Shown here piece by piece: positions 1,613 to 27,557 of a DNA stretch of 64,000 nucleotides. The stretch is taken from assembly GCA_903813345.2 (NCBI GenBank), contig CAIIXF020000005.1:9861375-9925374 (forward strand), written 5' to 3'. Origin of the DNA: Owenia fusiformis. Its lineage: Eukaryota; Annelida; Polychaeta; Sabellida; Oweniidae. A program made the position numbers and the translations under genes. Positions within the stretch are counted from its first letter, which is position 1, and the number at the start of each line of letters is the position of its first letter. The notes under the pieces are model-generated. The model had not been told where the DNA came from, ran no database searches, and saw only the letters and a program-made list of their open reading frames with translations.

Positions 1613-3449
1613 CTATATTATCTCGTATAAAGTATTTCCTTTATTCTGGAAAAATAATGAGGAGGGAGTTTGTGCAAAATTAACAGCTAGAAAAATTAAG
1701 GAGTCTGACAGATTGTCTAAATACATCAATACCAATGTTTCTGGTGCTTTCTTTTTAAATAGAATAATCTTATAAATAGCATGATATTTAAAATCTTAAT
1801 CATAAGGTTATCATGGTAATATGTATGAAATATGAAAAGAAATACATATGTTAGATATTTCATTTGCATCATGTAACAGGTGCCTGTTGTTTAAAGGAAA
1901 TTTGCAACTGTTTTCTTGTTACAATTATAATTCAATTACCTGTTTTTTGCCAGTTGTTTTGACTGTTTTCAGAAAAATTCTAATGAACCCCCTCCCTCTA
2001 CACATAAATCAACATCTTATCAAGTTTATATTTTTCTTTTGAGAGTTCAGTTATCTAAAGTTCAAAGGGTGCATGATATATACATTTTCAGTACATGTGT
2101 GGCATATCTTATAACACCACTAACTTGACAACTGGACTTTGAAATTAATAAGTGCAAGCCACAACTTCTCAAGTGTCAGCTGATATACATTCATTATGCA
2201 CCCAGTTTGTGAATATTTTGACACACTTGGATATTTTGAAGATAAACAAAACTCATGCCAATAATAACAAAGCTAGTAAAGCATCCATCCCTGCCTTAAA
2301 TGAAGTCTGCTGTCTACATTAGATAAACTAACACAAAGTGACTATAGTGAAAGTTTCAGTCTCGTAGGATGATAATTTCACACTGTTCTCTTTAAAATAG
2401 GAAAGCTGGCTGATTTTAAGAATTGCCATATAATTCAAAGTCAAAATTTGTATAATTCAAAGTCAAAATTTGTATAATTCAAAGTCAAAATTTGTCTTTG
2501 AGTTCTTGTTCCATGTGAATCGGCCATTATCAACATATTTTAAAATAATATTTCATACTATGTTTCATGGTTTGGATTGCCAGACTTCCAGGTAGTAGTA
2601 GACTACCTCTAGGATGAGACAATTATTTTCAATTAGTAGATAGACTATAATAACCTCAATGTTTTCTTTATTTAAAACCTCAATGTTGGAGTTCATAGCA
2701 ACCTTCCCAAATCTCCATCTGCTGTTCAAGCTAATTTATCAAACTGGAATAATAACATTGAAAATTGCTGCAAATACGACTTTTGCTGAATCTACAAGAT
2801 AAGATGTTATTATGGTTACGATATTAAATGTCACTCTGATCTTGTTAATAGCTTCCGTTTCTCTATGTGTATAAATGAAGTCTGGATTTTGTTCTCTATC
2901 TGCAAAATTCATTCCTGTTTCCTTTATTCCTAGGTTATTTTCTTTCAACTCGAATGTGTTTTAGTTTATTGGTTGTTGGCATTAGTATGCTGTTTTATAC
3001 TTCAGCTAACTCGATAAATTCACTCAATATTTGATCAATCTTGACTTTTGAATTGAGAAACCATCAACGGAATCATCGTAACTAAGCAAAATGGAACATT
3101 GATCCTTTATATTCCCCTGAGACACACGAAAGAGGCTAATTAAACTATTTGGTCTGCTTTTCTCCATATATTTTCCTACCAGATATTGACTTAAGAAAAT
3201 CAATATAACTCAAGTTATACAAAATATGTTTTCTTCAAACATTTTCTCTTGCTCCTTTCACAACTTTTCTTTAAATAATTGGCAAGTCAGAGTCGAGTCC
3301 TCATTAGGACTAACTCATTGACTCAATTGAGAGTTTAACCTAATTTAATCTCATTTATTCAATTTCCTTGACTGCAAGTCTAAATCTTTTAAACCAAAAT
3401 TGTCAGCACAGCAGATAAATAACATTATTTATGTTTTGTGTACCTTCAG
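1613..3449. other. Intron upstream of the dystroglycan exon; no gene seen
   Basis: Apart from the 22-bp triplet repeat, this AT-rich stretch shows no convincing exon. It ends in a splice acceptor (taccttcag at 3441-3449). The short open frames at 1848-2042 and 2739-2948 have no recognisable protein character. The missing start of dystroglycan (signal peptide and first Ig strand) is expected further upstream and was not found here. Confidence 0.6.
2430..2496. repeat. 22-bp tandem repeat, 3 copies
   Basis: Three perfect or near-perfect copies of tataattcaaagtcaaaatttg in tandem, in non-coding sequence upstream of the dystroglycan exon. Confidence 0.9.
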
Positions 3450-6400
3450 GTGGTTGAAGCTGGAACTGATAGTCTGCCATCTTGGCTACATTATGACAGC
3501 ACAAGTCAAACAATAGAGGGCGTCCCAACACCCGGCAATCTAGGACAGCATTATATAGAGGTCACTGCAAACAGTAAGGACCAGTCTTCTCAGGACAAGG
3601 ATGTCTTCTCTATCAATGTCATGGAAGATGCGTCCCATACATCTGCCATGCGCCTGAAAGTGTCAAAGGAGGGGTTTAAACCAATCAAATGTCAGACAGG
3701 GTCTCCAATTACCATGGTAACTGTTGCCATAGATACTAACTTTGATGGAATGGTTGCTAAGGAGAAAACAGATTTATTGAAAAGCATGGTGTCTCATTTG
3801 AAACTGTCTAATGAGTTATTGAAGATTATCCCTATGGGAAACCGACCTCTATTTGACTCTGATGCTCTTGTCGCTGGTCCTGGTGATGCTAAAGACCAAA
3901 AACAGGCTGGTGCATTTATGACATGGGAAGTTGGTTGCGGTAATGTTGAACCTAAACATATGGAGGTGCTACAGCATGTCGAGTCCAGTGCTCAGGATGG
4001 TTCTATGAGAGAAGCCATTAAATATCCCATCATTGGTTGGCATGTCACCAATAAATCACCCCCAACTCATCGTAGACTGAAGCGCCAAGCTGCCCAGTAT
4101 GTTACAGCTACCCCTGTACAACCAAGTATGGCTCCCACTAAGACTCCCATTGAAACAGTTGTTGTTGAAGAGCCTAAAGATACCGAAACAAAAACTGATG
4201 AACCTACAAGGGTTATCCCCACAATGGAGTCCCCTACATTTGTAACTGGAATACACCCTACTAAATCTCGCCACCATAGAACAAAAACTGCAGGGCGTCA
4301 TAAGGGTCGTAAATCTAAACACCACCAACCTAAGCAATCACCTCGCTCTAAACATCACCATAAGTCCAAACACCCTAAACTGCCAATCGTGACCCCAACC
4401 CAGGAGCCCATAGCCCCTACAAAGATCGTTGACTTCACAGATATGGAATCCAGCAGTGTGTACACTGCACCAATTGATGATGTTCACATGTCCCGCACAG
4501 ATATTATTGAACCATCTGTGACATTATCTTCAACCAAGACTAAGCCCACAAAAACAGAAGCTCTACCCCCCAGCCGTACCTTCACTCAGGACCCCAGCCC
4601 AACAAGCTCTGAGGTTGTACCCACCAAGACAGAACAAGTCACAGTAGCACCATCCGAAGAATACAACTTCGAGCCAATTAGCAAGAACAATATTGATGTT
4701 CTATACGCAAAGGTGGGTGAAGTATTCAAGTTCCACGTACCTATGGATACATTCTATGATGTGGAAGATGGGACCACTGAGAATTTGAAGCTGGTATTCT
4801 TAACTGCACAAGGCTTTACACTACCTGCTTCCTCATGGGTGAAGTTCGATCAGGAAAAACAAAACTTATATGGACTGGCTTGGGAGAAAGATGTTGGTGT
4901 GAGTGAGTATATCTTGGCTGCCATTGACAGTCAAGGAAAAATGGCAAGACAATCACTGGAAATTGTCATCCAAGATAGACAGGACACAAAACCTCCTACT
5001 CATGAAATGGCATTTACATTAGATCTCGATTATGATAAATTCATAAACGATGTAGACATGCAAATCCTAGTGGCCAATAAAATTTCTGCAATGTTTGGGG
5101 ATTCTGATTCATCTAAATTAACTGTCACAAAGATAGCCAAAGGATCAGTCATCTACCAGTTTACCAATAACAGCATGCCTGATGGGGATGGATGCCCCGC
5201 TGATGAGATCAACAGACTCGTTGATTTACTCCTGGATGAAGATGGAAAACTCAAACCTGAAATTGTTGAGAAACTGAAACCTATTGAGATCAAGAACTTC
5301 ACTCTTCAGAGAGCTGGGCCTTGTAAGGATGATGACAGAATTAAACCAGTAGTAGCCAAGCCACCAGGCTTTAACTTCACACCATATCAGAGCAACCCCA
5401 TTGACAAATTAACTGCTCGAGCTGGACGATTCTTCCGTTATCGAATTCCGAAGAACACATTCACCGATCCTGAAGATGGAAATACCCGCAAATTGAAACT
5501 CCTGTTCCTTACCGTTGGGGGCTATGATATTCCTCCTAATTCCTGGATTAAACTTGATGAGCAGAAACAAACTCTATATGGATTACCGTTAAAGGAAGAT
5601 GTCGGCCGTGATGAGTTCATACTTGCTGGTATTGATCGAGGAGAAAAGATTGTTCGCGATGCATTTGAGATTTTCGTTGAGGACTATCCCGAGAAAGACT
5701 TAACGCACACATTCTCATTGACATTAGACAAAGACTATGATAAATTTAGTAAAAATGTCGATGACCAAATCAATGTTGGAGATAAGATTGCTGCCATATA
5801 TGGTGATAGTAATGAACGATTTATAACAGTGGAGAGCATCAAACCTGGCTCAACAATTTTCACATGGTATAATAATAGCTACATGGGCCACCCCTGTCCT
5901 ACAGCACAAGTAGCAGCCCTTTTGGAGAAACTCTCTGACAATACTAACAGCCTATTGCCAGAGGTTAGGGAACTATTCAGTGATATACCTATAAAAGAGT
6001 TTAAACTTACACCTCTTGGTGCTTGCGAAAAGGACAAGAACTTTACCAATGTTATTATCACAGATATTCCAGTTGGACCGAGAGATGTTGAGACTCGTGG
6101 AGCAAGTAATGATGAAGTTTGGATTACAACTGTTGTACCTGCCGTTGTCATAGCAGCCATGTTGCTACTCGCTGGAATAATAGCCTGTATTTTATATCGT
6201 AAAAAGCGAAAAGGTAAACTCTCTGATGAAGACCAAAATACATTTGTGAACAAAGGTATACCTATTATATTTGCTGATGAGCTTGAAGAAAAACCGGAGA
6301 CACCAACAAAGCCTCTGATTTTGGAGGACGAGAAGCCACCTTTACCTCCTCCTGAATATCGGAGGTCGTCATGTGGCAGTGGCGCTCCCTCAACACCATT

Positions 6401-6578
6401 ATCTGATCATAAGGAACCAATAGGAACCACAGATGATGAAGACAATGAGAGAGATGAATATGAACAATTATTGTATCAACCCCCTCCCCCTTTCCCATCT
6501 AATGGAAACAATAGAAATGCCAGACCAAATCGCCAACAACAGCAATATAAAAGTCCACCACCTTATGTACCTCCATAA
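3450..6578 (+). CDS. DAG1: Dystroglycan, large 3' coding exon (5' end missing)
   Basis: Membrane receptor linking extracellular matrix to dystrophin/utrophin. The exon enters at a CAG|GTG acceptor and encodes 1042 residues to TAA; the signal peptide and first Ig strand must be on earlier exons. Numbering from V1: end of Ig1 with LPSWLHYDS; S6-like domain; furin site RRLKR at 208-212, aligning with the human N-terminal cleavage site; Thr/Pro-rich mucin-like stretch to about 410 with a Lys/His-rich insert; Ig-like plus SEA module 1 (about 412-630); a second Ig-like plus SEA module (about 649-864); membrane helix about 893-917; basic YRKKRKGK; cytoplasmic tail ending SPPPYVPP, the dystrophin WW-binding motif. 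Human dystroglycan has one Ig2-SEA module, so this one carries a tandem duplication. Each SEA keeps a Gly-Ser pair (565/566 and 800/801) where alpha/beta cleavage occurs, and the Cys pair. Identification is very secure. I believe the intron position matches the human one. Confidence 0.97.
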   Translation: MVEAGTDSLPSWLHYDSTSQTIEGVPTPGNLGQHYIEVTANSKDQSSQDKDVFSINVMEDASHTSAMRLKVSKEGFKPIKCQTGSPITMVTVAIDTNFDGMVAKEKTDLLKSMVSHLKLSNELLKIIPMGNRPLFDSDALVAGPGDAKDQKQAGAFMTWEVGCGNVEPKHMEVLQHVESSAQDGSMREAIKYPIIGWHVTNKSPPTHRRLKRQAAQYVTATPVQPSMAPTKTPIETVVVEEPKDTETKTDEPTRVIPTMESPTFVTGIHPTKSRHHRTKTAGRHKGRKSKHHQPKQSPRSKHHHKSKHPKLPIVTPTQEPIAPTKIVDFTDMESSSVYTAPIDDVHMSRTDIIEPSVTLSSTKTKPTKTEALPPSRTFTQDPSPTSSEVVPTKTEQVTVAPSEEYNFEPISKNNIDVLYAKVGEVFKFHVPMDTFYDVEDGTTENLKLVFLTAQGFTLPASSWVKFDQEKQNLYGLAWEKDVGVSEYILAAIDSQGKMARQSLEIVIQDRQDTKPPTHEMAFTLDLDYDKFINDVDMQILVANKISAMFGDSDSSKLTVTKIAKGSVIYQFTNNSMPDGDGCPADEINRLVDLLLDEDGKLKPEIVEKLKPIEIKNFTLQRAGPCKDDDRIKPVVAKPPGFNFTPYQSNPIDKLTARAGRFFRYRIPKNTFTDPEDGNTRKLKLLFLTVGGYDIPPNSWIKLDEQKQTLYGLPLKEDVGRDEFILAGIDRGEKIVRDAFEIFVEDYPEKDLTHTFSLTLDKDYDKFSKNVDDQINVGDKIAAIYGDSNERFITVESIKPGSTIFTWYNNSYMGHPCPTAQVAALLEKLSDNTNSLLPEVRELFSDIPIKEFKLTPLGACEKDKNFTNVIITDIPVGPRDVETRGASNDEVWITTVVPAVVIAAMLLLAGIIACILYRKKRKGKLSDEDQNTFVNKGIPIIFADELEEKPETPTKPLILEDEKPPLPPPEYRRSSCGSGAPSTPLSDHKEPIGTTDDEDNERDEYEQLLYQPPPPFPSNGNNRNARPNRQQQQYKSPPPYVPP
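4684..6042 (+). repeat. DAG1: Duplicated Ig-like/SEA module inside dystroglycan
   Basis: Copy 1 (about 4684-5340) and copy 2 (about 5394-6042) are diverged in-frame tandem copies. Shared landmarks in the same order are: a TF.D.EDG motif, LKL.FLT, a SW.K.D..KQ.LYGL block, a DVG..E.ILA.ID block, D.DYDKF..(N/D)VD.QI, the K.GS..(I/F) cleavage-type motif, a NNS glycosylation sequon, and two cysteines (one after the NNS motif, one near the module end). The copies differ at many positions, so the duplication is old and both copies are under constraint. Confidence 0.93.
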
Positions 6579-24800: not shown

Positions 24801-27557
24801 AGGAACAAGGTTAGTATACTTCTATGGATTGTTTCAGAATGAATTCATCAAAATTTAGGAACTAAACAAACTTGAGGCTTTTAAGTCATGTAAACTATAA
24901 GTATGAACAGACAAAAAATGTTATGAAAAAATTAAAATGCAAATTTGACATCTTGTCTATGTTTTCTCTATCTTTCACCAGAAGTGGTGACATTGTTATA
25001 TAGTCTCCAACTTTTTGTAGACTGCGTTTGCTGGGTGGTTTTTGGTGGTCGGTGTCTGTAACAAATGGCAGTTGATGACATTTTGCATGTTAATGCCTTG
25101 TATATCTGTGTTGTAGCTCTCACTTAGTGACTGTACCACCAGGCCCTGTGCTGTCAGATGCTTTGTTGTCATCGCCAGTGATCGTGGGAGAGGATGGCCA
25201 AGGTGCAGTACCAGGCATGGGTGGTGGCTTTGAGTTTGGAGTTGATCCCAATGAAGATCCTGAACTAGCTCTGGTGAGTAGTGGAATCACTATTAAAAAT
25301 ATCTGCATTTTTTACTCAAATGTAAATTTTATTCACTTGAACATATCTTTAGGCCTACGCAATTTTCTGTATTTCTGTTATATAATTATCTTTGGAACAC
25401 TGTACCATAAACCACATGCTTTCTTCAGATTAGTGAGCCTCATGTCAGTTTAAGTTATTCTCACAAGATTGTATAATTTATTAAATTTATGAATGATGTA
25501 TGATCTCCTTATTACCAGGCTCTACGTGTCTCTATGGAGGAGCAGCGTGCCAGACAGGAAGGGGATGCAGGCAAGGCCCAGCAGCCCTCAGCAATGGAGG
25601 TCACACCTGCGCCGGCTTCAGCCGAAGGTATGAAACACCTCTCTTCCAAAAGTGTCAATGAATTTAATTGTCAAACAATAATTGTATTTTTCACAGTTTT
25701 CAACATTTCCCAAGTGAATTAAAGGAATTACAACTGGAAATTTGCTCAAATATTGCTCACTTTTTAGATTTCAACTGTTTTAAACTGCTATTTTCTATCA
25801 TTATTAACTACCTATTTCCCTTGTATCTATATTTAGCATCTAATTTACAGTACTTGAGATGTAGAAAACCCTGTAAAAACTTGTTGAGTTGTTGAGGGTT
25901 GAGATTCTTGTTTGAAGTTTAAAACGAGGCCTTTAGCCTAGGTAATACAACTGCATACAAGAATCGGGTACAATAAACCACTAACAATTAATTGACATGG
26001 TTGAGTCCTTGGTTTAAGTCTTCTCACTTTTAGCAAAGCATTTTAAATTCTGATGAAAATATATTATTGTAAAGAATTGAAATTTCAACCAGAAGCTTTT
26101 GCAAGGCACTAGCCTTACACATAGACATGCATAAGCACCTGTTTGACTAATCATTAATGATAATATTTATACACTGTAGTTTTTTACACAAGATCTTGTT
26201 TTTCATTATCACAGTTTTCCATTATTAAATTAGCTGTCTAATAAAGCATGGCTATAATGTGTTCTGATTAGTCAGAAATAAATAATGCATGCCTAGATAT
26301 GTGTGAATTTGTATTTAGCCAACAGTGAGGAAGCGCTATTGGAACAAGCTATGGCGATGTCCATGCAGCAGGAGAGTGAGGAGCCTACCCCCAGCCTGCC
26401 TGTTAACTACAGCTCTATGAGTGAAGAGGAGCAGATAGCACTTGCAATGCAGATGTCAATGGCAGGAGGAGGTAAGAAATGCCCATTTTGACGAGATAAA
26501 AATGTGAAGATGATAATCCAAATAAAATCAGAGAAGGTTGATGATTGTTTTCATATACTATATCTTGTAATATTATTCACTTTTCATAATTCAGTATATT
26601 TCAAGTCAAACATACTCTATAAAAATTTGTATGTCACAAACAGCTGGTCATGAACAAAATGATTGTTTTTTGTAAAAGTTCCATAGTTGAGAGTCTAATG
26701 AGAGAATCTGTAAATGTACCTTTTTACTTTGAAGGATACACACAAACTGCATGTTGAATCCCTTCACAATTTGATGGATTTATTTAGACTTACTATGTAT
26801 AATATTTGTGATTGTGCAGAACTCATTGGTTAGTTCATTTTGCGTGCTGCTTGCAAATTTGTTACCCCCTCTATCACTGATCCTAGCTTTTGTAAAGATC
26901 TATAAAATTTTTCAGATGAAAGTCCTGCTGAGTCACCAATGGAAACTGATGAAGGTGCAACCCCAGCTAAACAGGAGCAGGTAGGGATTCATTGAATCAT
27001 CCAATAGTCTCATCAGGTTCAGCTGGGCTGTACTGCATTATTGTAATGCAGAGAGATGTATTGGTGCTTTCAATTCAAAGGTTTTAATTATGTGCACATG
27101 GGCAATAAAATGCCGGAAGGCAATTTGCCCCAGCCCTGCCTATTCATTGTACATGTATATTTGTTTATGTTTATGAAATAAACCTATTGATTAAAAAATA
27201 TTATGTGCATCGAAAAGCATAAATGTTAGTGTCATTCAACCATAGCATTGTTTGCTGATGGGAGTCAAAATAAATCTTGTCTCACGACAACAGTTAAAAT
27301 GTGTAAGAAAATGAGATCAATGAAATAGAGGAGGAATTCCTTATTCCATTCAAAAATATTAACTTTCAATGAAAATTCAATTTCAGGAGGAGGACTACAG
27401 TGAAATGATGAATGACCCAGCTTTTCTACAAAATGTTCTGGAAGGCCTTCCGGGTGTCGACCCCCAAAGTGAGGCTGTTCGTTCTGCTATGGGATCCCTT
27501 GCCGATTCAAATAAGGATAATAAAAAAGACTCAAAAGATAAAGCTGATAAAAAATAA
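21859..27557 (+). CDS. PSMD4: 26S proteasome subunit PSMD4 / Rpn10, 11 exons
   Basis: Ubiquitin receptor of the 19S regulatory particle. Exons: 21859-21884, 23433-23573, 23883-23994, 24185-24271, 24461-24529, 24748-24809, 25117-25273, 25519-25627, 26319-26471, 26916-26980, 27387-27557; all GT-AG and in phase, giving 383 residues (human 377). The tiny first exon encodes MVLESTMI and two bases of Cys, as expected for the vWA start. The vWA domain covers about 1-190 ([36 protein letters not shown]). UIM1 is at about 214-230 ([14 protein letters not shown]), a middle UIM-like helix at 257-273 ([16 protein letters not shown]) and the last UIM at 290-303 ([14 protein letters not shown]). Then [24 protein letters not shown] and a Lys/Asp-rich tail. 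The middle UIM is degenerate in human. Intron 1 holds a hAT MITE and segmental duplicates. Confidence 0.96.
21940..23330 (+). repeat. Local segmental duplication, three copies, PSMD4 intron 1
   Basis: Copies at about 21955-22305 plus 22871-22900 (split by the hAT MITE), 22921-23083 and 23084-23312. Shared landmarks include AACCCATAACTTAGTATT, CTACCGGAAGTATGACAT, ACAAATTTGATTTGAAATC and CAGACAGTAGACAGGGAGGC. Copies 2 and 3 are nearly identical, except that copy 3 has an 8-nt insertion (acatatgt) and 'cgttc' in place of 'caatc'. Confidence 0.9.
22306..22862. mobile_element. hAT-like MITE (557 bp) in PSMD4 intron 1
   Basis: Inverted arms of about 200 bp start TTATTGCATCCTACGACCCC on the left and end with the near-complement on the right (GGGGTCGTAGGATGCGATAA). 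Exact 8-bp target duplications ACAACAGC lie at 22298-22305 and 22863-22870, typical of hAT elements. The uninterrupted target is present in a local duplicate at 23270-23290 (GCAACAGCATATGAAAA). No transposase frame. Confidence 0.93.
24960..25110. repeat. Dispersed repeat in PSMD4 intron 6
   Basis: Segments CACCAGAAGTGGTGACATTG, TCTCCAACTTTTTGTAG, GTCTGTAACAAATGGCAG and TGACATTTTGCATGT recur in the same order at 37930-38100. It is a dispersed repeat of unknown class lying just before exon 7. Confidence 0.7.

Follow-up and report, generated by a model that had tools for sequence, protein, structure and literature searches.

Through the receptor dystroglycan, cells are anchored to the matrix around them. 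A gene for a vertebrate-like dystroglycan in the annelid Owenia fusiformis carries the juxtamembrane IG2-SEA module twice, with the cut position kept in each copy, and lets one ask whether SEA domains placed in series can each be cut, and whether the extra module acts as a spacer or as another break point. We analysed this gene in a window of 64,000 nucleotides (contig CAIIXF020000005.1 of assembly GCA_903813345.2, positions 9,861,375 to 9,925,374 of the forward strand; coordinates below are those of the window unless marked otherwise), which had earlier been described from its letters without database searches (the sequence-only reading). Statements attributed to PMC4582122, PMC5216574, PMC9478142, PMC6586460 and PMC8478517 refer to the excerpts of those papers available to us.

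Identity and exon structure of the gene

A single open frame (3423-6578, forward strand) runs for 1051 codons without a stop and spans both copies of the module. Pfam searches with this frame returned DAG1 (1.9e-84, in two stretches), a_DG1_N2 (4.5e-26) and He_PIG (4.1e-14, in three Ig-like stretches), and a PDB search matched alpha- and beta-dystroglycan chains, best 9c3c_A at 5.1e-65, bearing out the family identity that had been proposed from the letters. The chains of 8uf4, 9c3c and 8yt8, on which much of the comparison below relies, we take to be mammalian. The N-terminal IG1 and S6 domains are also present (phmmer to 5llk_A, 4.4e-41, and to 1u2c_A, 3.9e-38), and outside the two modules the frame contains:

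3450..6578, + strand: dystroglycan coding exon 2, 1042 codons plus the stop TAA (sequence by inspection; open frame)
3690..4061, + strand: S6-like domain of alpha-dystroglycan (Pfam PF18424 a_DG1_N2, 4.5e-26, frame residues 90-213)
4071..4088, + strand: RRLKRQ, predicted furin-type site, aligned with KRIRRQ / KRVRRQ of 9c3c_A and 5llk_A
4089..4655, + strand: mucin-like region, rich in Thr and Pro, that includes a basic stretch of many His and Lys (from the translation)
6117..6194, + strand: transmembrane helix, much like that of 8yt8_O (second aligned stretch of 8yt8_O, query 887-932)
6195..6575, + strand: cytoplasmic tail with C-terminal SPPPYVPP, a putative dystrophin-binding PPPY motif (Pfam DAG1 to profile position 290/290)

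By inspection, exon 2 follows a CAG splice acceptor (AG at 3448-3449), with coding from 3450, and is preceded by a candidate ATG exon with a hydrophobic start and a GT donor at L005:6652-6900, in the ten kb before the window. This upstream exon, for which Pfam gave no family, ends in ...GDVTSYK at L005:6900, is followed by GTAAGC, and would continue in phase 0 into the VVEAG encoded from 3450. A count by hand gives a predicted intron of 6549 bases (about 6.5 kb), lying inside IG1, and a predicted protein of 1125 residues. A coding part split into two exons by an IG1 intron is the conserved layout of dystroglycan genes, and that intron is described as universally conserved (PMC5216574). As judged from sequence, the gene is a genuine invertebrate dystroglycan, encoded mostly by one uninterrupted frame, and the S6 domain, furin-type site, transmembrane helix, tail and candidate upstream ATG exon with its IG1 intron provide the dystroglycan context that supports the main reading developed below.

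Several other features were noted in this part of the window. Within the mucin-like region, 39 residues (4263-4379; KSRHHRTKTAGRHKGRKSKHHQPKQSPRSKHHHKSKHPK) are strongly basic and rich in His, Lys and Arg, and 9c3c_A differs where it aligns. Upstream of exon 2, in the IG1 intron, a 53-base unit occurs in six tandem copies with 93% matches (1100-1422), and a 22-base unit is present in three exact copies at 2429-2495.

Two diverged copies of the IG2-SEA module

The frame carries tandem IG2-SEA modules in one exon, copy 1 at 4656-5369 and copy 2 at 5370-6089:

4656..4997, + strand: copy 1 IG2-like domain (phmmer to 8yt8_O, 9c3c_A and 8uf4_A)
4998..5369, + strand: copy 1 SEA (MAT_NU) domain (Pfam DAG1 8e-19; 8uf4_B 0.002)
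5142..5147, + strand: copy 1 Gly-Ser (IAK-GS-VIY), predicted site 1, aligned to the alpha/beta chain boundary of 8uf4 and 9c3c
5370..5702, + strand: copy 2 IG2-like domain (phmmer to 8yt8_O, 9c3c_A and 8uf4_A)
5703..6089, + strand: copy 2 SEA (MAT_NU) domain (Pfam DAG1 1.1e-13)
5847..5852, + strand: copy 2 Gly-Ser (IKP-GS-TIF), predicted site 2, aligned to the Gly-Ser of 8yt8_O

The sequence-only reading had reported two diverged in-frame copies at 4684-6042; the alignment upholds this with slightly wider limits (4656-6089), 100 of the 229 aligned residues being identical (43.7%) with a score of 486, against a mean of 33.9 (sd 5.1, maximum 54) in 300 shuffles. Identity was similar in the two domains (IG2, 46%, 51/111; SEA, 43%, 47/110), and codon positions 1, 2 and 3 agreed at 56, 65 and 33%, respectively; with only 33% of third positions identical, the copies must be old and do not reflect a recent assembly error. 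They look maintained at the protein level. Two other origins were considered and rejected: the copies cannot belong to separate genes, an objection that the sequence-only reading had itself raised, since they share one frame and one exon, and a recent duplication at the DNA level was ruled out, a repeat search of 4500-6578 giving three two-copy families of only 12-13 bases. The genomic sequence gave no sign that either copy is removed by splicing, the other objection of that reading.

Each copy taken alone scored well above the Pfam DAG1 cut-off of 23.3 (68.6 bits for copy 1 and 51.7 for copy 2) and matched 8yt8_O over both IG2 and SEA (118.7 and 102.2 bits). He_PIG, the Ig-like family, gave 17.3 for copy 1 and 14.6 for copy 2, under its cut-off of 24, so the IG2 assignment rests on the PDB matches. 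The landmarks that had been picked out by eye, an NNS sequon (located after the Gly-Ser), two Cys and a Gly-Ser, proved to be in register between the copies, with the Gly-Ser at the alpha/beta boundary of the PDB chains and the Cys pair aligned with that of 8yt8_O; in both copies we take this pair to be Cys669 and Cys713 in the numbering of PMC4582122. Within IG2, copy 2 and 8yt8_O have YGLP and DAFEI where copy 1 has YGLA and QSLEI, and the Pro of YGLP is presumably Pro565 in the numbering of PMC4582122. A Pro in the IG2 region is described as universally conserved and tied to the alpha/beta interaction, and DAFEI as missing in most protostomes (PMC4582122).

A second dystroglycan gene and the origin of the duplication

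A search of the 498 Mb genome with the DAG1 profile found three places among 9 candidates scored, namely the two modules described here and one on C7, in a search where a missing match does not prove absence. The latter belongs to a second dystroglycan gene (L004:3423-7749, minus strand) with one IG2-SEA module, and this one-module paralogue of the same genome offers an internal comparison for the two-module gene. Its frame of 980 codons has an S6-like domain (6.1e-7), a long Ser/Thr-rich stretch and, by inspection, likely its own ATG exon; the module contains NIFEGSVEIAW, with GSVEI at the cut position, and is followed by a transmembrane segment and a PPPY tail (DAG1 6.3e-24). Identity of this module was 34.3% with copy 1 and 38.6% with copy 2.

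We compared copy 1, copy 2, the C7 paralogue and 8yt8_O as a quartet, limited to these four sequences, by simple distances with 1000 bootstraps. Over the whole module, copies 1 and 2 grouped together in 909 of the 1000 replicates and copy 1 with 8yt8_O in 91; by domain, the two copies grouped in 835 replicates for IG2 (copy 1 with 8yt8_O, 160) and in 721 for SEA (274). These bootstraps favour, short of proof, a duplication that happened inside the two-module gene itself.

Where the two SEA domains may be cut

Both Gly-Ser pairs fall where dystroglycan is divided into its chains. In the alignment with copy 1, Gly163 pairs with the last residue of 8uf4_A and 9c3c_A, and Ser164 with the first of 8uf4_B and 9c3c_B; when the two copies were combined in a profile, the boundary of these chains fell again at 163|164, corresponding to Gly160|Ser161 of copy 2. 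Matches to the beta chains were short and weak, copy 1 giving 0.002 with 8uf4_B and 0.092 with 9c3c_B, and copy 2 alone 0.11 and 0.47, neither of them significant. Cutting at the two sites was then weighed by their flanks. The dystroglycan cleavage consensus is given as Hy-x-R/K-G-S-Hy-Hy-Hy (PMC4582122); site 1 (IAKGSVIY) fits it provided that Tyr is counted as hydrophobic, and site 2 (IKPGSTIF) departs from it at two positions, with Pro for R/K and Thr for the first Hy. On these motifs and alignments, site 1 is probably cut, a cut at site 2 is an even call, and cutting at both sites falls a little short of even.

The departure of site 2 from the consensus at two positions supports a receptor in which distal site 1 alone cuts, the proximal module remains an uncut spacer, and two chains result, with a longer beta chain. 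A precedent exists outside dystroglycan in the proteoglycans IMPG1 and IMPG2, each with two SEA domains, of which SEA-1 lacks the motif and SEA-2 cuts; for IMPG1, SEA-1 is predicted to stay uncut and blots agree (PMC9478142). The comparison is weakened in that the study left the non-cutting of SEA-1 untested for IMPG2, and in that site 2, unlike SEA-1 of either IMPG protein, retains its Gly-Ser. Copy 2 has kept Gly-Ser, Cys pair and sequon despite the low third-position agreement between the copies, and has also kept YGLP and DAFEI, which speaks against an uncut spacer. We regard cutting at site 1 alone as a serious possibility, held at less than even.

The converse arrangement, with a cut at the proximal SEA alone and copy 1 serving as spacer, would match hymenopteran and dictyopteran insects, in which the C-terminal module is reported to hold the Gly-Ser site (the first copy being unmentioned in the excerpt), with none in Diptera, Lepidoptera and Coleoptera (PMC4582122). 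The YGLA and QSLEI of copy 1 point the same way, but the consensus is fitted better by site 1 than by site 2, and we consider this arrangement unlikely. A strict motif for autoproteolytic SEA domains, GSxxV with x being V or I (PMC9478142), is found in neither GSVIY nor GSTIF; GSIVV of 8yt8_O matches it. This would agree with no cut at either site and a single chain, as expected in nematodes and in the insect orders without a site; those animals, however, lack any Gly-Ser site, and here Gly-Ser is kept twice, so that we judge an uncut receptor very improbable. The deviations of copy 1 lie in its IG2 motifs and those of copy 2 on either side of the cut position, and there could be a division of labour between the copies.

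Structural models contributed little to these assignments. AlphaFold models made for each copy from a two-row alignment had mean pLDDT values of 40.4 (copy 1) and 51.4 (copy 2), a quality too low for any estimate of how strained the Gly-Ser turn is. In the model of copy 2, Gly160-Ser161 would sit between strands 152-157 and 162-168, with the cut-site residues 159-161 below pLDDT 50. Foldseek returned 148 matches at E <= 10 for this model, and the sole match at E <= 0.001 was 8yt8_O (2.7e-4), with TM values of 0.28 / 0.24 and an rmsd of 14.6, a match that lends weak support.

Proposed arrangement of the receptor

We favour, with modest confidence, a duplicated module of IG2 plus SEA fold that is cut at site 1, whichever way site 2 behaves, a reading that overlaps with cutting at site 1 alone. 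Against it stand the flanks of site 2, the missing GSxxV at either site, the YGLA and QSLEI of copy 1, the low-confidence models and the weak beta-chain matches of copy 2. In this proposal, the juxtamembrane IG2-SEA module would have doubled long ago within the large 3' exon, and both modules would fold as a cadherin-like IG2 domain followed by SEA. The distal SEA would cleave itself at the Gly-Ser of site 1, leaving alpha-dystroglycan held non-covalently, and the proximal SEA may also cleave, fully or in part. If both sites were cut, three chains would result: alpha, a middle chain of 235 residues (the C-terminal half of SEA1, IG2b and the N-terminal half of SEA2) and beta, with 242 residues. 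A cut at site 1 alone would leave a membrane chain 477 residues long, with the second module as its stalk. With either outcome, the laminin-binding part would stand farther from the membrane.

In Notch chimeras, the unit of cadherin-like and SEA domains from dystroglycan acted as a proteolytic switch and shielded against MMPs (PMC6586460), and repeats of the module have been suggested to stiffen the ectodomain and push the laminin-binding region outward (PMC4582122). By analogy, two units in series may form a longer stalk and, if both are cut, may place two non-covalent joints under tension. More tentatively, and at less than even odds, the gene may encode a receptor of three chains joined non-covalently, which could come apart at two successive points on the way from laminin to dystrophin and which arose separately in an annelid lineage where the published survey records no expansion of the module.

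Relation to described dystroglycans

The doubled-module architecture is already known. The sequence-only reading had allowed that the duplicated form might prove both ubiquitous and already described in invertebrates: it is described, with two IG2_MAT_NU modules in Saccoglossus kowalevskii, arthropods and Trichoplax and six in Nematostella (PMC4582122, PMC5216574), as well as an inserted copy of the module in urochordates (PMC4582122), and it is not ubiquitous, the dystroglycans of echinoderms, molluscs and annelids being vertebrate-like in organisation with no expansion marked in the excerpt (PMC4582122). With mammalian dystroglycan (8uf4, 9c3c and 8yt8) the gene shares the order of domains, the transmembrane helix, the sequon, the Cys pair and the Gly|Ser boundary, but the mammalian protein has one module only. 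The hemichordate S. kowalevskii, compared by published description only, has the module twice, as here. Arthropod dystroglycans likewise have a module of about 250 residues doubled in tandem (PMC4582122), but their genes have gained introns (PMC5216574), whereas both Owenia modules share one exon; the Nematostella vectensis protein is also a tandem expansion, but with six modules and with GP replacing Gly-Ser in beta-dystroglycan (PMC4582122).

Among the literature matches listed, no title dealt with a dystroglycan of two SEA domains or three subunits, nor was there any mention of one in PMC10293626 or in the excerpt of PMC8478517. The new points may be the annelid lineage and the presence of Gly-Ser in both copies, the latter of which the figures or supplements of PMC4582122 might already show.

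Other loci noticed

A 376-codon open frame at 19393-20523 matches Pfam KTI12 (1.5e-25); its product is like a P-loop kinase and appears to resemble the Sec-tRNA kinase PSTK. For the frame at 25094-25453, Pfam gave no match at E up to 0.1; part of it appears to resemble the proteasome ubiquitin receptor Rpn10/PSMD4. COX1 had no match in the assembly, in a search whose control registered in 8 of 14 genomes, and a search for bindin, run without a positive control, also came up empty. A hint of an annelid source, provided that a family called annelid in its Pfam name is exclusive to that group, comes from C6 (L006:331-1692), where an LDL-A domain precedes the C-terminal domain of an erythrocruorin linker (Eryth_link_C).
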